From an uncultured Alphaproteobacteria bacterium (GTDB taxonomy: Bacteria > Pseudomonadota > Alphaproteobacteria > Rhodobacterales > Rhodobacteraceae): 32,356 nt of DNA. The notes under the pieces were generated by a model. It saw only the letters and a list, made by a program, of their open reading frames with translations. It made no database searches and had not been told where the DNA came from. The stretch's first letter is position 1, and each line of letters opens with the position of its first letter. Location of the stretch: positions 1-32,356 of the forward strand of contig CACIIZ010000014.1 of NCBI GenBank assembly GCA_902586855.1, given 5' to 3'. This document shows positions 22,913 through 32,356 of this stretch, one piece after another. A program made the translations under genes and the position numbers.

Positions 22913-24466
22913 TTACGTTTTTAAATGGATGGGGAATTTTTCAACAATTTCTTTTCGAATAGATGGAGACAGAGCTGCCTTTGAGATAGTTAACAACAAA
23001 TCCTCTTTCTTCTGTTTAGCTTTCATTAATAGCTCAGGTTTTCCATTCTCAGCCCACTCTTTTGGGCTCGATCTATCTCCTAACCTAGGATAGATATACT
23101 CAGTTTGCATCAAACCCAAAGTCTGTTCATGACCTAAATAATGGCCCGGACCATTCAGGCAAACAGACCTCATAGTCTCAACACTTAAGCTTATTTCGTC
23201 CACATTAATTCCCTTAACACAACGTAAAGCCTGACCCAGAAGGTCATCTCCTAAGATCATACTCTCCATGCAAAATCCCAACAATGAGGCGTGCATTCCG
23301 ACAGCCTCATATACCAAGTTTAAACCTGAAAGACCCGCCATTACATTCGATGTCGCCTGTTCCCAACCAGCTTGCATGTCAGGCAATTTTGAGTCTGCAA
23401 TACCAGCGGCTGCACCCCCTGGCAAATTGTAGAATCTATGCATCTGAGCACATCCTGCCGTCAAAAGCGCTTGCTCTCCAGATCCTCCAGACATTGCCCC
23501 TGTTCTTAGGTCTGACACGAATGGCCAGGTCCCAAAAACTGCTGGGAATCCACTTTCAATTGAATTGACATAAACAACGCCAGCTAGACATTCCGCAACT
23601 GCCTGCACTATTGCGCCTGCAATTGGTGCGGGAGCCGTAGCTCCAGCCTGTCCAGCCGATAGTAGTAGAATGGGCATGCCTTGCCTTATGCATTCTTCCA
23701 TAACTGAACAACTTTCTGTCGCAAATTTTAATGGCGGTACCACAAAACAATTTGAATTCGATATAAATGGTCTTTCTCTCCAAGAGCTTTCACCTCCAGA
23801 AAGTATGTGCACCATATCCATAATAGGCTTTACAAAAGAGGCCTCTGTAAACGACACCCCGACATGCTTGCTAGTTCCGGAACAGCAGGCATAGACAGTA
23901 TTGAGATCCATTTCAAAGTTATCTTTAATATCTCTACATACCATGGGTCTCTGTAGAAAATGTATATTATCAAGATGATGAGCTATTTTTGCAGCATTAT
24001 ATAAATCTGAAACAGTACTATCACGATAATTAGAGGTTTCCAAATCTACAACGTGCACCGCAGCCCCAGCAGTCCCATAATGCACTCTATTTTTCTTTAA
24101 TAAGAGGTCATACTCAGAATTCCTACCGTGAAGGTAAAAATCTCTGCAAGCAATGGATAACATCTTTTCTACGAGACCTCTTGGAAACTTTAATCTTCCA
24201 TCAGTTCCCAAAATTGCTCCTGCGTCGGTCATAGCCTTTACACCAGTTTCGGGAGCATCTGCTAAGCCTATTTCTTCAAGGACCTGAAGAGCAGCCTCAT
24301 GAATCTTTATTATTTCATCCTGGCTTAATGGATTATAGGTCCCTCCTATTAGCCCGGGCTTGACAGGCCTTAACTCCTTTGCCAAAGGTGCAGATCTTAA
24401 TGCCTGTCTTGCAGCCCTACCTCCAGCCCTCTTATTTTTTTCTTTATCCTGAATGCCTCTCTCCAT
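22913..24466 (-). CDS. Trimethylamine methyltransferase (MttB) family protein, non-pyrrolysine (ATG at 24466 preferred)
   Basis: GLIGGTYNPLSQDEIIKIHEAALQVLEEIGLADAPE, HVVDLETSNYRDSTVSDLYNAAKIAHHLDNIHF, GGSGEQALLTAGCAQMHRFYNLPGG; continuous ORF with no internal UAG. Confidence 0.93.
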   Translation of the reverse strand: MERGIQDKEKNKRAGGRAARQALRSAPLAKELRPVKPGLIGGTYNPLSQDEIIKIHEAALQVLEEIGLADAPETGVKAMTDAGAILGTDGRLKFPRGLVEKMLSIACRDFYLHGRNSEYDLLLKKNRVHYGTAGAAVHVVDLETSNYRDSTVSDLYNAAKIAHHLDNIHFLQRPMVCRDIKDNFEMDLNTVYACCSGTSKHVGVSFTEASFVKPIMDMVHILSGGESSWRERPFISNSNCFVVPPLKFATESCSVMEECIRQGMPILLLSAGQAGATAPAPIAGAIVQAVAECLAGVVYVNSIESGFPAVFGTWPFVSDLRTGAMSGGSGEQALLTAGCAQMHRFYNLPGGAAAGIADSKLPDMQAGWEQATSNVMAGLSGLNLVYEAVGMHASLLGFCMESMILGDDLLGQALRCVKGINVDEISLSVETMRSVCLNGPGHYLGHEQTLGLMQTEYIYPRLGDRSSPKEWAENGKPELLMKAKQKKEDLLLTISKAALSPSIRKEIVEKFPIHLKT

Positions 24467-24473
24467 TTTTAAG

Positions 24474-26918
24474 TCACATCCTGACCTTATTCGATTTTGG
24501 ATCATACATAGGTTTTATGCTAACTTTAGCAGGGATCGGTTTGCCAGCAACATCAATTGAATAATCAAAATTCAGAATTTTCTCATCAGTTAAACCTTTG
24601 CAATCTATATAACCTAGCCCCACAGCAGCCCCCAAAAAGTGTCCATAATTACCAGAGGTGACGTAACCTACGATTTTATTATCCCTAAGAATTGGTTCAT
24701 TATGATAAACCATTTTCGATGGGTCATCGAGCAAGAATTGTAATAGCAATTTATTCAGACCCTGTTTCTTTTTTTCTAAAATGGCTTGTTTACCAAGAAA
24801 ATCCCCTTTTGACATGTCAACCGTGAAACCAAGACCTGCTTCGATAACATGATCTTCGTCCGTAATGTCATGACCAAAATGTCTATAAGCTTTCTCTATC
24901 CTACAGCTGTCTAAAGTGTGCAAACCGCATAGCCCAAAATTGACTTGGTCTTTAACTTTCCAAATCTCTTCAAAAACGTGTGCACATTGATCGGAGCTAA
25001 TATAGAGCTCCCAGCCCAATTCACCTACGTAGCTGACCCTATGGGCTCTTGCTACGCCATAACCAATTTCTATATCTCTCCAAGTACCAAAGGGATGGTT
25101 TTCGTTAGAAAAATCATTAGGTGATAGTTTAGTTAATAACTGACGAGAATTTGGTCCCATGATTGATAGTACACCTTCGGAAGCACTGACATCCACTACC
25201 GCCACATTTTTCAATTTAGCAAAACGTCTAAGCAGCTTTAGATCACGCTGCAAAGTAGCGCACGGCACTACTAGCAAAAATGAAGTTCTTGAAAGACGAG
25301 AAACAGTCAAGTCACTTTCAATACATCCTTTTCTATTAAGAATTTGCGTATACACTATTTTCCCTACTGGTACATCTACTTGAGCTGTACAGATAAACTG
25401 TAATAAATCTAACGCTTCATCACCCTCAACTCTAATTTTCCCAAAAGATGACATATCAAAAATTCCTATGCCTTCTCTAACTGATTGGTGTTCAATTTTT
25501 TGATTTTCGAACCAGTTTTGCTTACCCCAAGAGTATTGGTATTCCGGCTTTTGTCCTGGTAAAGAAAACCAATTTGCTCTTTCATAACCAGCGACTTCCC
25601 CAAAAACTGCTCCTAAATCCTTCAGATAGCTATGAAAAGGGGAACGTCTTATGTTACGACTGGTTTCAGGCTGAAGGTATGGAAAGTGATCTGCATAAAG
25701 TAATCCCAGACTTTCCGAAACCCTTTGTTTTAAATAATTTCTATTACGCTGAAATGTTTCAGTTCTCCTAATATCTACTTCCCAAAGGTCAAAAGGTGGT
25801 TCCCCATCATTAATCCAGCTAGCAAGCGCCATCCCGGCACCACCAGATGAAACAATGCCAACTGAATTATAACCAGCAGCCACCCAATATCCCTCACATG
25901 AAACAGATTCTCCTAAGTAGTACCTATTGTCTGGAGTAAAACTTTCAGGCCCATTAAAAAATGTCCTAATTCCAACCGAGTTTAGAACAGGCATTCTCTT
26001 GAGGCCAAGCGATAAAACTGGCTCAAAGTGGTCAAGATCTTCAGGTAATTGGTCAAAACAAAAATTCTCCGGTATACCATCCACTCCCCATGGTTTAGCC
26101 CTTCTTTCAAAAGCGCCCAGCATCATCTTACCAGCATCTTCTTTATAATAGGAGTACTCGTCAGGAACCCTCAATACTGGTAGTTGGCCAAGCCCCTCTA
26201 TAGGTTCAGTAACAATATAAAAATGCTCACAAGCATGTAAAGGAATTACAACATTGCTTTTTGCACCCAATTCTCTGGCCCACATTCCTCCACAATTAAC
26301 AACGATATCCGACGTTATATTTCCTATCTCACCACCTTCTAGGCGATACTTCACACCTGTTACCTTATCATATTCTATGCTGACGTCCGAGACTGTAACT
26401 CCCTCTTCTATTTGAATACCCATTTGCCGAGCTCCTTTTGCCAGCGCCAAAGCTATATTGGCTGGGTCTGCTTGACCATCTTTAGGGAGAAATACCCCAG
26501 AAAGAATATTGTCCATATTGAGGATTGGATATTTTTCCTTAATTTCTGTGGGCTCAATTTCACTGACTTCAACTCCAAAAGCTCTGGCTAAAGCGGCTTG
26601 CCGATTAAGTTCTTCTTTACGACTTTCAGTAAGAGCCACCGTTATTGAACCGTTCTGTTTCATGCCTGTTTCAATACCTGTTTCCTGGGCCAAATTGACA
26701 TACAGTTCCGCTGAATACTTCGCCAATCGAGTCATGTTTTGGGAGTTTCGCAACTGACCAATTAGACCTGCTGCATGCCAGGTAGTACCGGACGTTAATT
26801 TCTTTCTTTCCAAAAGAACCACATCCTTCCAGCCTAACTTGGCCAAATGGTAAGCCACTGAACAACCAGAAATACCACCGCCAATAATTATCGCTCTAGC
26901 ATTTCTTGGTAAATTCAT
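24474..26918 (-). CDS. FAD-dependent oxidoreductase/GcvT-domain fusion, sarcosine-dehydrogenase-like (ATG at 26918 preferred)
   Basis: AIIIGGGISGCSVAYHLAKLG, TSGTTWHAAGL (covalent-FAD His motif), GYERANWF, GcvT-like region TQILNRKGCIESDLTVSRL and GELGWELY. Confidence 0.93.
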   Translation of the reverse strand: MNLPRNARAIIIGGGISGCSVAYHLAKLGWKDVVLLERKKLTSGTTWHAAGLIGQLRNSQNMTRLAKYSAELYVNLAQETGIETGMKQNGSITVALTESRKEELNRQAALARAFGVEVSEIEPTEIKEKYPILNMDNILSGVFLPKDGQADPANIALALAKGARQMGIQIEEGVTVSDVSIEYDKVTGVKYRLEGGEIGNITSDIVVNCGGMWARELGAKSNVVIPLHACEHFYIVTEPIEGLGQLPVLRVPDEYSYYKEDAGKMMLGAFERRAKPWGVDGIPENFCFDQLPEDLDHFEPVLSLGLKRMPVLNSVGIRTFFNGPESFTPDNRYYLGESVSCEGYWVAAGYNSVGIVSSGGAGMALASWINDGEPPFDLWEVDIRRTETFQRNRNYLKQRVSESLGLLYADHFPYLQPETSRNIRRSPFHSYLKDLGAVFGEVAGYERANWFSLPGQKPEYQYSWGKQNWFENQKIEHQSVREGIGIFDMSSFGKIRVEGDEALDLLQFICTAQVDVPVGKIVYTQILNRKGCIESDLTVSRLSRTSFLLVVPCATLQRDLKLLRRFAKLKNVAVVDVSASEGVLSIMGPNSRQLLTKLSPNDFSNENHPFGTWRDIEIGYGVARAHRVSYVGELGWELYISSDQCAHVFEEIWKVKDQVNFGLCGLHTLDSCRIEKAYRHFGHDITDEDHVIEAGLGFTVDMSKGDFLGKQAILEKKKQGLNKLLLQFLLDDPSKMVYHNEPILRDNKIVGYVTSGNYGHFLGAAVGLGYIDCKGLTDEKILNFDYSIDVAGKPIPAKVSIKPMYDPKSNKVRM

Positions 26919-29365
26919 GATCGCAGAACCAAATTCTCTGGATCCCAAAGAGGTCCTGGATCTTGAATGATAGCGTTATAGGTTTGCCCAAAGATATCTA
27001 TACAAACTTCTTGGTTTGGCTTTGCACAGTCAGTTGCTACCACTCCTAATGCCAGTGAAGCTCCGACCCTGTGGCCATAAGCACTACTTGTGACTTCACC
27101 TACAATCCTACCATCCAGCGTGATAGTGGACATGTATGGAGCATCACATTCATTTCCTTCAACAATCATTGTTACAAATTTTTTGGATACTCCCCTTTGC
27201 TTCTCTTTGAGCAAAGCTTCCTTACCCGGAAAAGACTCTGGCTTATCAAATTTAATAAAACGCTCCAGTCCACTCTCTAGTAAGGTATAATCAGTAGAAA
27301 GATCTCCCTTCCAAGCTTTGTAGCCTTTCTCAACACGTAAACTATCAAGAGCAAACATACCAAAAGGAGTGGCACCCTCCAAGATTACTCGCTCATAAAC
27401 CACAGATAAATCTTCCTTCCTAACATGAATCTCCCAACCCAACTCGCCAGCATAGCTTACCCGAGCCAGTAGAACATCCTTACCTAGAATTTGAGAACGC
27501 TGTAAGGACAACCAAGGTAATTCAAAATCAGCATTAGATATTTCACTTAATAACTTTCTAGATTGGGGGCCGGTCACTATCAAACAAAACCAGTCTTCTG
27601 TCTGATCAACTATATTAACGTTGGTCTCCTCAGTTATCCCATTCCTAAGAACTGATAAATCATGCCATTGAGCTGCCCCTGCAGTAATCAGGGAAAATTC
27701 ATCTTTTCCAAGATGCATAATTGACATTTCAGTAAGAACTCGACCACGTTCATCTGAAAAATATGCAAGGCTCATTCGATTTAGCGATGGGAGACCTCCA
27801 GCAATTTGTCGAAGCAACCAATTTCCAGCTCCCTGACCATTTATATGGTATCTGGAAAACCCTGGCAGGTTCAATACGCCAACATTGGAGTGTACAGCCA
27901 GACACTCTTCTTTAACTCTTTGAAACCAAGGTCCTTCTCTCTCCCAAGTTTGGGTAGAAGCTTCAGAGGTATCGTCTCCCGGTTTGGCAAACCAATTGGC
28001 ACGCTCCCATCCATTATATGCCCCCATTTGCCCCCCCTGCTCAACAATTCTATCGTGCACTGGGGATAGTTTCTTATTTCTACCCGCTGGCCAGGAGTGA
28101 AAAGGAAAATGAATAGCATACTCGTGACCATAAACTTCGGCTGCTTTTTCCTGACAATAATTATCATCCGCAAAATCAGTAAACCTTCTTGGATCACAAG
28201 ACCACATGTCCCATTCAGTTGATCCTTCGGCAATCCATTCTGCCAAAACCTTCCCAGCTCCACCTCCTTGAGCAATTCCAAAAGTAAAAACACAAGCCTC
28301 AAAAACATTCTTTAACCCAGGTGAAGGACCTATAAGGGGATTACCATCTGGCGTATAAGGAATCGGTCCATTGATAACCTTCGAAATGCCCGCTTGTCCT
28401 AAAATTGGAACTCTCTGCATCGCATCATTTACATACCATTCAAGCCGATCTATATCATCTGGATACAACTGAAAGCTGAAGTCTTCAGGTAGAGGATCGG
28501 CACTATCTTTCCAATGAATCTTACAATTTCTCTCATATGGCCCCAAATTTAGGCCATTTTTTTCTTGTCGCAAATAATAACTGCTATCTACATCTCGAAG
28601 AAGGGGTAATTTCTTATTTGTCCCCTTTGCTCTCTCGACCAACTCTGGAATTTCTTCAGTTAGAAGATACTGATGACTCATCACTGCCATAGGCGCGGAC
28701 CTACCACCATATGGTAAAAACCAATCACTCACCCGCTTCGCATAATATCCTGCTGCATTCACAATTATTTCACACTCTATCGGACCTTTATCCGTTTTTA
28801 CAATCCAGTCATCTCTTGACTTACTTATTCCTATCGCAGAGCAGAAACGGATTATTGATGCACCAAGATCTCTCGAACCCTTGGCCAAAGCCTGAGTAAG
28901 CTGCGCTGGGTCTATATCACCGTCGTTCGGATCAAAAAGAGCACCTTCCAGGTCATGAACTTCTAAGAAAGGATACTTTTCTTTCAGTTCCATCAAACTG
29001 ATCACTTCCAAATCCATTCCCTGATAAATTCCCATCCCTTTAGCTCGCTGAAATTCCTGCATACGCTCCTTAGAATGGGCTAACCTTACGGATCCTGTCA
29101 CATGATAATTCATTGGATAATCTACAGCTTTGGATAGTCCCCTGTATAATTCTGTCGAATACCGCTGCATGTTCATAATGGCCCAAGAAGAAGAAAAAGT
29201 TGGAACATTCCCCGCTGCATGCCAGGTACTACCAGCAGTTAGTTCATTTTTTTCCAAGAGGAGAAGATCTCTGCAACCGGCTTTTGCCAAATGATAGAGG
29301 CAAGAAACTCCAACCACTCCACCACCAATTATAACTATCCTGGCTGATTTTGGTAACTCTGACAT
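26915..29365 (-). CDS. FAD-dependent oxidoreductase/GcvT-domain fusion, dimethylglycine-dehydrogenase-like
   Basis: IVIIGGGVVGVSCLYHLAKAG, TAGSTWHAAGN, GWERANWFAKPGDD, SDERGRVLTEMSIMHLGKDEFSLITA, YAGELGWEIH; strong G-rich RBS (GGGGGG) before ATG. Confidence 0.93.
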   Translation of the reverse strand: MSELPKSARIVIIGGGVVGVSCLYHLAKAGCRDLLLLEKNELTAGSTWHAAGNVPTFSSSWAIMNMQRYSTELYRGLSKAVDYPMNYHVTGSVRLAHSKERMQEFQRAKGMGIYQGMDLEVISLMELKEKYPFLEVHDLEGALFDPNDGDIDPAQLTQALAKGSRDLGASIIRFCSAIGISKSRDDWIVKTDKGPIECEIIVNAAGYYAKRVSDWFLPYGGRSAPMAVMSHQYLLTEEIPELVERAKGTNKKLPLLRDVDSSYYLRQEKNGLNLGPYERNCKIHWKDSADPLPEDFSFQLYPDDIDRLEWYVNDAMQRVPILGQAGISKVINGPIPYTPDGNPLIGPSPGLKNVFEACVFTFGIAQGGGAGKVLAEWIAEGSTEWDMWSCDPRRFTDFADDNYCQEKAAEVYGHEYAIHFPFHSWPAGRNKKLSPVHDRIVEQGGQMGAYNGWERANWFAKPGDDTSEASTQTWEREGPWFQRVKEECLAVHSNVGVLNLPGFSRYHINGQGAGNWLLRQIAGGLPSLNRMSLAYFSDERGRVLTEMSIMHLGKDEFSLITAGAAQWHDLSVLRNGITEETNVNIVDQTEDWFCLIVTGPQSRKLLSEISNADFELPWLSLQRSQILGKDVLLARVSYAGELGWEIHVRKEDLSVVYERVILEGATPFGMFALDSLRVEKGYKAWKGDLSTDYTLLESGLERFIKFDKPESFPGKEALLKEKQRGVSKKFVTMIVEGNECDAPYMSTITLDGRIVGEVTSSAYGHRVGASLALGVVATDCAKPNQEVCIDIFGQTYNAIIQDPGPLWDPENLVLRS

Positions 29366-29506: not shown

Positions 29507-30730
29507 CTAAAAAAACGCTTGTAGACCTGTCTGAGCCCTGCCTAAAATCAGTGCATGAATATCATGGGTTCCCTCATAGGTATTGACGGTTTCTAGGTTA
29601 ATTAAATGTCGCATGACCCCATAAGATATATCGATTCCATTGGCACCTAGCATGTCCCGAGTATTTCTCGCTATTTCCAGCGCTTTTCCACAGTTATTTC
29701 TCTTTAATAAACTGATTGTCTCTGGGCTTGCACGACCCTGATCCATTAATCTACCCAAAGATAAAACAGCACCTAGTCCAAGACTTATTTCAGTTTGAAT
29801 ATCAACTAGTTTCTTTTGAAATAATTGGTTTTGAGCTAATGGGCGCCCAAATTGATGTCTATCAAGCCCATACTGTCTCGCAGTATGCCAACAAAATTCA
29901 GCCGCCCCAAGTACGCCCCAAGAAATTCCATATCTGGCTCTATTTAAACAACCAAATGGTCCTTTTAAGCCTTGAATCTCTGGTAGCAACGCATCCTCTT
30001 TAACGACAACATTATCCAAAACTATCTTTCCCGTTACAGAAACTCGTAGGCTAAGCTTCCCGTCAATTACAGGAGCAGACAATCCTGCCATACCCTTCTC
30101 CAGAAGAAAACCTCTTACCTTACCATTATGAGCTTCGGACTTTGCCCAAATAATAAAAACATCTGCGATGGGGCTATTAGAAATCCAGCATTTCTCACCT
30201 GTCAGTTTATACCCCTCAGGCACTTTCTGCGCTCGAGTTGTCATACCGCCAGGATCAGATCCAGCATTTGCTTCTGTTAACCCAAAGCACCCCACAAGTT
30301 CACCTTTAGCTAATCCAGGCAAAAATTTCTCCTTTTGTTCTTCTGACCCAAAAGCAAAGATTGGATACATCACCAAGCTCGACTGGACTGACATCATAGA
30401 ACGATAACCTGAGTCAATTCTCTCTATTTCTCTAGCTATCAACCCATACGAAACATAGTTAGCGCCTAAACCTCCATATACCTCCGGAATGGTAGCCCCA
30501 AGGAGGCCCATCTCACCCATTGCTCTAACTACGCCTCTATCTATTTTTTCTGACTGAAAAGCATTTGCAACTTTTGGTTTCAACTCCTTTTCAGAAAATT
30601 CTCTAACTGATCTGATTAAAAGCCTTTCACTTTGAGACAGATTATCCTCTACCCGTAGAGGATCTTGCCAATCAAATTTGCTGAGCTCAGGAGTATCTAT
30701 CCTCTTCCCAGATCCGACAGTATCTTTCAT
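29507..30730 (-). CDS. gcdH: Glutaryl-CoA dehydrogenase / acyl-CoA dehydrogenase family
   Basis: [81 protein letters not shown] (catalytic Glu). Confidence 0.95.
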
Positions 30731-31150: not shown

Positions 31151-32356
31151 ATGGCTTACAATGTAAATAGGAATTCATTAGAAAATCATTGGATGCCCTT
31201 TACTGATAATAGGGGTTTTAAGGCTAACCCTCGCCTTATTGCTGAAGCATCTGGCGTAGTAATGAACGACCACATGGGCAACACCATCATAGATGGTTCT
31301 TCAGGACTGTTTTGTTGCCCGGCAGGACATTGCCACCCTAAAATCATTGAGGCAGTTCATGAGCAAATGAAAATCAATACTTACACTTCTCCTTTTGGAA
31401 CGGGTCATGAGGCTAGCTTCACACTAGCCGACAGAGTATCTGAACTAACACCCGAAGGGATGAACCATGTTTTTTTTGTAAACTCTGGTTCAGAAGCGGT
31501 TGATACAGCTCTAAAGATTACCATGGCATATCATTCTGCAATTGGAGAAAATAGAAGCCGATTTGTTAGTCGTGAAAGGGCTTACCATGGGGTTAATATG
31601 GGTGGAGTATCTCTTTCAGGAATGGTCAATAATAGGAAAACCTTCCCAATTGTGATGCCTGGCGTGGTCATGATGAGACATACTTGGACTGGAAAAGATT
31701 TAAATGTCCAGGGACAACCAGAGCAAGGTAAGGAATTAGCAAATGATTTGGAAAGATTTGTTCAAACCTACGGTGGTCAAACAATTGCAGCATGTATAGT
31801 CGAACCTGTCGCCGGTTCAACAGGAACTTTGGTGCCGCCAATTGGTTATCTTGAGCGTCTGCGAGAAATATGTGACCAAAATGGAATACTACTAATTTTT
31901 GATGAAGTAATTACTGGTTTTGGAAGGATGGGAACAAACTTTGCCGCTGACAGATTTCATGTAAAGCCAGATATCATGACCATGGCTAAGGCTTTGACAA
32001 ATGGATCCATGCCAATGGGTGCAGTCTGTGTAAAAGATGAAATCTATGACGTGGTCACTGATAGCGCAAATAAGGATGCTATAGAATTCTTTCATGGATA
32101 CACTTATTCTGGTCACCCTGCAGCATGCGCGGCAGGGCTTGCCTCCCTTAAAATTTACCAGGATGAAGACCTTTTTGAGAGAGCAAATAGTCTTTCTCCA
32201 TATTTTCTAGATAGTATATTCTCTCTTAGCGATCACCCTTTGGTAAAGGATGTGAGGGGTATTGGCCTGATGGCTGGAGTGGAAATGCATGCTGATAGCA
32301 ATCCAGGTAAAAGGGGTGGAAGACTACAAAAAGACCTGTTCTGGAATGGTTTACAC
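31151..32356 (+). CDS. Class III (PLP) aminotransferase, omega-amino acid:pyruvate type (partial at 3' end)
   Basis: Own translation, no stop before window end: MAYNVNRNSLENHWMPFTDNRGFKANPRLI...NSGSEAVDTALK...VEPVAGSTGTLVPP...LLIFDEVITGFGRMG...MAKALTNGSMPMGAV; GGGGG RBS just upstream. Missing from ORF track because truncated. Confidence 0.95.
   Translation, partial: MAYNVNRNSLENHWMPFTDNRGFKANPRLIAEASGVVMNDHMGNTIIDGSSGLFCCPAGHCHPKIIEAVHEQMKINTYTSPFGTGHEASFTLADRVSELTPEGMNHVFFVNSGSEAVDTALKITMAYHSAIGENRSRFVSRERAYHGVNMGGVSLSGMVNNRKTFPIVMPGVVMMRHTWTGKDLNVQGQPEQGKELANDLERFVQTYGGQTIAACIVEPVAGSTGTLVPPIGYLERLREICDQNGILLIFDEVITGFGRMGTNFAADRFHVKPDIMTMAKALTNGSMPMGAVCVKDEIYDVVTDSANKDAIEFFHGYTYSGHPAACAAGLASLKIYQDEDLFERANSLSPYFLDSIFSLSDHPLVKDVRGIGLMAGVEMHADSNPGKRGGRLQKDLFWNGLH

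Follow-up and report, generated by a model that had tools for sequence, protein, structure and literature searches.

What joint task is served by three tightly packed genes, two of which encode fusions of a flavin adenine dinucleotide (FAD) enzyme to a GcvT domain, and the third a methyltransferase of the MttB superfamily? The genes lie on contig CACIIZ010000014.1 of the Rhodobacteraceae assembly GCA_902586855.1 (C14 in our numbering, in which G denotes genomes, L loci and C contigs), and the entire contig of 32,356 nt is what we call the window. The source genome (G000) is a metagenome-assembled genome (MAG) of 1.79 Mb in 108 contigs, 67% complete. A first-pass annotation of the window had seen in these genes a candidate pathway for stepwise N-demethylation, and this is still the best-supported reading, backed by the linkage and co-occurrence of the genes, a match in gene order to SPO3400 and SPO3396 of Ruegeria pomeroyi, and corrinoid components encoded elsewhere, with the substrate being predicted. 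We consider it probable that the three genes correspond to the three steps by which a trimethylammonium compound is N-demethylated, most likely glycine betaine to glycine. Glycine betaine is among the most abundant osmolytes of the sea.

All three genes are on the minus strand. FAD1 (26915..29365) encodes a dimethylglycine dehydrogenase (DMGDH)-like FAD/GcvT fusion of 816 aa, and its stop overlaps the start of FAD2 (24474..26918), a sarcosine dehydrogenase (SARDH)-like fusion of 814 aa, in the sequence ATGA (26915..26918). A spacer of 7 nt (CTTAAAA, 24467..24473) separates the stop of FAD2 from the start of MttB2 (22913..24466), which encodes a non-pyrrolysine methyltransferase of 517 aa; coordinates and sequence thus agree with the packing described earlier. 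An alternative upstream ATG for MttB2 exists at 24505, and the alignments of its relatives begin at 24466. All three genes are under strong purifying selection, with dN/dS values against the congener G005 of 0.038 for MttB2, 0.052 for FAD2, and 0.066 for FAD1. Because dN/dS is as low as 0.04-0.07 in every gene and two orders have kept the same gene set, we regard the operon as more than a chance arrangement. A scan for promoters and terminators gave fewer matches than shuffled sequence and was uninformative.

The family of MttB2 is clear from its match to PF06253 (MTTB), which covers model positions 1-488 of 500 at 368 bits against a cut-off of 25, and its closest named matches come from marine Rhodobacteraceae and from MAGs and single-amplified genomes of Alphaproteobacteria. 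The protein scores 338.9 bits against TIGR02369, the model of the pyrrolysine-containing trimethylamine methyltransferase, below the cut-off of 525. In the alignment it has isoleucine at the position of Pyl334 in MttB, and its gene has no in-frame amber codon, so the label of a non-pyrrolysine homolog was right. Alignment to MtgB of Desulfitobacterium hafniense (2qne/9yce) extends over the full length at 197 bits, and MttB2 may well catalyze the same reaction. In a maximum likelihood tree of 37 sequences, which contains two long branches of unsure placement (pyrrolysine MttB and G047_C41), the MttB2 orthologs including the window protein form one clade with support of 100/100, and the superclade around it also takes in several MttB proteins paired with FAD proteins as well as an MttB encoded on the megaplasmid of R. 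pomeroyi.

Both FAD proteins have the Pfam domains DAO, FAO_M, GCV_T, and GCV_T_C across their full length, which together with their matches to DMGDH upholds the earlier description of two FAD/GcvT fusions. FAD1 best matches mammalian DMGDH (544 bits to rat DMGDH, 4pab), and FAD2 matches DMGDH (441 bits) and dimethylglycine (DMG) oxidase (408 bits) about equally; no SARDH was among the solved-structure matches of either protein, and the SARDH label of FAD2 is provisional. The two proteins share only about 33% identity. FAD1 carries TWH, SHQY, and TE motifs, with SHQY/SYY/TE kept among its orthologs, and the conserved motifs of FAD2 are TWHAAG, EHFY, and ESDLTVSR. The histidine of the TWHAAG motif, which we take to be the flavinylated residue of the covalent FAD link, aligns with mammalian DMGDH in both proteins and is invariant in FAD2 orthologs. 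FAD1 is predicted to demethylate a dimethylamino intermediate with tetrahydrofolate (THF) as the one-carbon acceptor, and FAD2 a monomethylamino intermediate.

Is the association of these genes conserved? We surveyed gene order in 80 named loci encoding close relatives of MttB2. FAD1, FAD2, and MttB2 follow one another in this order not only in Rhodobacterales but also in Sinorhizobium, Shinella, Cohaesibacter, Hoeflea, and others; the trio is often flanked by a divergent LysR gene upstream and a gene resembling 3-hydroxyisobutyrate dehydrogenase downstream. An ortholog of FAD1 or FAD2 lies within 7.5 kb of MttB2 in 31 of the 72 loci whose sequence extends 2.5 kb or more upstream of MttB2, and in all 15 loci of Rhizobiales type, a set chosen by record title; the core unit in Rhizobiales is without an aminotransferase. 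Other Rhodobacterales have MttB2 beside a class-I aminotransferase gene (AT1) and a phosphoenolpyruvate (PEP)-mutase/isocitrate lyase (ICL)-like gene, near cysS and cimA, and have detached FAD1-FAD2 clusters with an XRE-cupin regulator, a LysE exporter, a GFA-family gene, and a homocysteine S-methyltransferase. Since most of these genes lie together as a single cluster in L246 (genome G134) and in L198 (G012), the separated forms seem to derive from a single ancestral cluster. Across 299 Rhodobacteraceae genomes (thresholds of E<1e-200 and E<1e-240), MttB2 and FAD1 are both present in 168 and both absent from 105, with MttB2 alone in 5 and FAD1 alone in 21; the Fisher p-value of 4e-52 ignores phylogeny and is meant as an effect size. 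The co-occurrence persists where the genes are unlinked, as in G014. Incomplete genomes limit such counts, for in the congener G007 MttB2 sits at a contig end. The linkage that the first-pass annotation had proposed to look for in relatives is therefore real. Other MttB paralogs have been paired independently with FAD/GcvT genes (L203, L210, L214, L220, L222, L225, L228, L229, L230), and the coupling of a corrinoid methyltransferase to a flavin- and folate-dependent demethylase is a recurring theme. Among the surveyed records, that of Sinorhizobium meliloti Ak57 (CP090106), labeled pSymB yet 3.7 Mb long, has FAD2 unannotated at L209:9394-11925 with a first open frame of only 441 aa, and the gene may be frameshifted there.

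The detached clusters connect the FAD proteins to R. pomeroyi. SPO3400 and SPO3396 have been named as dehydrogenases for DMG and sarcosine that contain H4F-binding domains (PMC4744692), and around them SPO3402 is a LysE transporter, SPO3398 a homocysteine S-methyltransferase, and SPO3394 a GDSL lipase (PMC4809877). In L237 the order is LysE, GFA, FAD1, a PNPOx-like gene, homocysteine S-methyltransferase, an AraC-type regulator, and FAD2, and in L239 it is FAD2, EamA, and GDSL lipase; in combination their order and spacing fit the tags SPO3402, SPO3400, SPO3398, SPO3396, and SPO3394, so FAD1 and FAD2 are most likely orthologs of SPO3400 and SPO3396. The homocysteine S-methyltransferase (PF02574, about 300 aa) often stands between FAD1 and FAD2 in Rhodobacterales (L107:4634-5521, L237:7187-8083, L239:10806-11756). 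MttB2 itself can be related to R. pomeroyi through the arginase SPO2119 (PMC9938194), as it lies some 11-12 genes from an arginase gene in G220, and SPO2108 and SPO2134 lie 11 or 15 tags from SPO2119; this gene order is compatible with MttB2 being either of them. Both are PF06253 proteins that rise, together with predicted DMG and sarcosine demethylation proteins, on N-osmolytes such as betaine (PMC12478193). The same study found that methionine synthesis and betaine demethylation alike depend on MtgC and MtgD, mtgC and mtgD mutants being unable to use betaine, and it already put forward the idea that different methylated compounds are handled by multiple PF06253 proteins.

A methyltransferase of this kind would be expected to work with corrinoid partners. 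The first-pass annotation had seen no corrinoid protein, reactivase, or methylcorrinoid:THF methyltransferase, which holds for the window alone, as such parts turn up on another contig or in congeners. On contig C39 (L195) of the source genome, a pterin-binding MtgD-like gene stands immediately before one for a RACo/RamA-like reactivase. Among 11 congeners, 7 encode a small B12-binding protein of about 240 aa, the 97% complete G005 being one of them, and in G025 (L205) this protein occurs together with homocysteine methyltransferase and DUF1638. Between the two options left open earlier, that these parts are encoded elsewhere or that MttB2 uses another methyl acceptor, the former is what we find, and the latter is not needed because the corrinoid parts exist. 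Genomes rich in MttB paralogs (G047, G021, G014, G225, G288) have one small corrinoid protein each, as expected of a shared hub. G047 has about ten MttB paralogs, four of them beside FAD/GcvT fusions (L222, L225, L220, L230).

Put together, the pathway would run as follows; which substrate MttB2 takes and in which order the steps occur are matters of inference. MttB2 would take one methyl group off the quaternary amine and load it onto the cob(I)alamin of the genome's single small MtgC-type corrinoid protein, a carrier that the split methionine synthase would also use; from there MtgD would pass the methyl on to THF, and the RamA-like protein would re-reduce the cobalt. The dimethyl product would then be oxidized by FAD1, with the one-carbon unit going to THF in its GcvT domain, and the monomethyl product would be oxidized likewise by FAD2, leaving the free amine, glycine.

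Several points weigh against this account. The first-pass annotation had proposed placing MttB2 in a phylogeny with the characterized clades, and although the protein belongs to a well-defined clade of its own, a split supported at 96/91 separates its superclade from D. hafniense MtgB, the S. meliloti structure 4yyc, and the mtg-cluster proteins, so that it stands outside the characterized MtgB clade, in a sister superclade. Our literature searches found no measured activity or substrate for any member of the MttB2 superclade. The same genome encodes a second methyltransferase, MttB1 (L001:1480-3036, G000:C12), which has no methylotrophy genes beside it and falls on the MtgB side of the tree (345 bits to 4yyc and 304 to MtgB), and another DMGDH-like protein that scores 546 bits to mammalian DMGDH, compared with 544 for FAD1; betaine could thus be degraded without the window operon. 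No betaine transporter is found within the conserved unit, and a search of the source MAG, which is 67% complete, turned up no small corrinoid protein. The orthology to SPO3400 and SPO3396 has gene order as its basis, and the functions of those two proteins are themselves homology predictions.

A rival reading has the same chemistry act on another substrate, such as beta-alanine betaine or a different amino-acid betaine, with an MtgB of the MttB1 type and other DMGDH/SARDH paralogs taking glycine betaine. We consider this possible, if on the whole unlikely. It agrees with the separate position of the MttB2 clade and with the MtgB-like and DMGDH-like paralogs in the source genome, and the ancestral neighbors AT1 and the PEP-mutase/ICL-like enzyme would suit the breakdown of an amino-acid product; however, the Rhizobiales core unit does without an aminotransferase, and the gene order around FAD1 and FAD2 fits that of predicted DMG and sarcosine dehydrogenases. 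A further hint in its favor comes from a sister operon on the R. pomeroyi megaplasmid NC_006569 (L210:9929-19249, SPO_RS21400-21380), which contains LysR, MttB, a class-III aminotransferase, two FAD/GcvT fusions, and a thiamine pyrophosphate enzyme. Its MttB is 45% identical to MttB2 of the window, and its thiamine pyrophosphate enzyme is nearest to sulfoacetaldehyde acetyltransferase (Xsc; 394 bits, below the cut-off of 676). Such an operon would fit a route from taurobetaine through taurine to sulfoacetaldehyde, and its gene content suggests that close relatives of MttB2 act on other betaines, perhaps taurobetaine, which also speaks against glycine betaine. In L227 (G015:C832:34000-48000), an MttB 65% identical to the megaplasmid protein adjoins an Xsc-like gene (70%) with no FAD/GcvT gene beside it. 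More tentatively still, we entertain the idea that the MttB2 superclade is made up of B12-dependent demethylases that work aerobically on several different marine and plant betaines. Each would have FAD-GcvT dehydrogenases of its own as partners, and the methyl groups from all of them would pass through the single corrinoid protein that belongs to the split methionine synthase. In that case taurobetaine would be the substrate of the megaplasmid paralog, and the window operon would serve some betaine that is not glycine betaine. Homarine was also considered as a substrate and rejected, as the literature leads give the Mgd route and not MttB.

The N-demethylation reading also assumes that MttB2 passes its methyl group to a corrinoid. 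That it uses a non-corrinoid acceptor, or is no methyltransferase in vivo, would accord with the lack of any corrinoid gene in the operon and among the genes recognized in the MttB2 flanks. We find this very improbable, since a small corrinoid protein and RACo are both present in 18 of 18 near-complete, MttB-bearing genomes of the family that were examined, and characterized members of the MttB family work with a corrinoid protein (PMC12155760, PMC12478193). In G063 and G049, which belong to other families, genes for the corrinoid protein, DUF1638, an MtgD-like protein, RACo, and an MttB1-type methyltransferase are adjacent. Of 16 family genomes that lack MttB altogether, only the same 5 keep RACo and the small corrinoid protein, and 9 have full-length MetH instead. 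That the adjacency is incidental, with FAD1/FAD2 and MttB2 serving unrelated pathways, might be read from the 41 of 72 MttB2 loci that have no FAD1 or FAD2 ortholog within 7.5 kb and from the 26 discordant genomes, and is hardly credible given an order conserved across two orders, the 168 genomes with both genes, and the independent pairing of other MttB paralogs with FAD/GcvT genes.

Upstream of the operon, an acyl-CoA dehydrogenase gene (29507..30730, minus strand) lies 141 nt from FAD1; it is kept only in the genus and is not counted in the pathway. Beyond it, on the opposite strand, a class-III omega-aminotransferase gene (31151-32356) is truncated by the contig end; it scores 537.8 bits against the AptA model (cut-off 500) and is likewise a neighbor only in the genus. 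These two genes, with a CoA-transferase and an ABC transporter, were considered as clues to the substrate and rejected, because they are conserved only in the genus, alongside housekeeping genes such as uvrC.

Aerobic B12-dependent demethylation of betaine was recognized only in 2025, and the window operon is a clear member of that pathway type. Bringing the corrinoid first step and the two folate-linked steps after it into a single transcription unit, in Rhodobacterales and Rhizobiales, it offers a compact genetic marker of the entire route and allows a clean test of how the many PF06253 paralogs divide the betaines among them.

How does the operon compare with known systems? MttB2 and MtgB of D. 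hafniense (PDB 2QNE/9YCE) are both non-pyrrolysine members of the MttB superfamily that align over their full length, but they lie across a well-supported split, and D. hafniense is an anaerobe with its own MtgC and MtgA. FAD1 and FAD2 share with mammalian DMGDH and bacterial DMG oxidase all four domains at full length, the histidine motif of covalent FAD, and the GcvT domain, while their substrates are predictions and the two have diverged widely from each other. The split methionine synthase of Phaeobacter inhibens with its RamA-like reactivase (PMC5764234) draws on the same corrinoid, pterin-binding, homocysteine-methyltransferase, RamA-like, and DUF1638 families that we find in relatives of the source genome, although that work concerned methionine synthesis and not amine demethylation. 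A further match is the MtgBCD/split methionine synthase system of R. pomeroyi (PMC12478193), from the same family Rhodobacteraceae, with a PF06253 methyltransferase, a single shared small corrinoid protein, a pterin-binding MtgD, RamA, DUF1638, and later folate-linked DMG and sarcosine steps. Compared with that system, MttB2 of the window falls in a sister superclade, outside the clade of mtg-cluster proteins and 4yyc, and its gene shares one operon with both of the later dehydrogenases.

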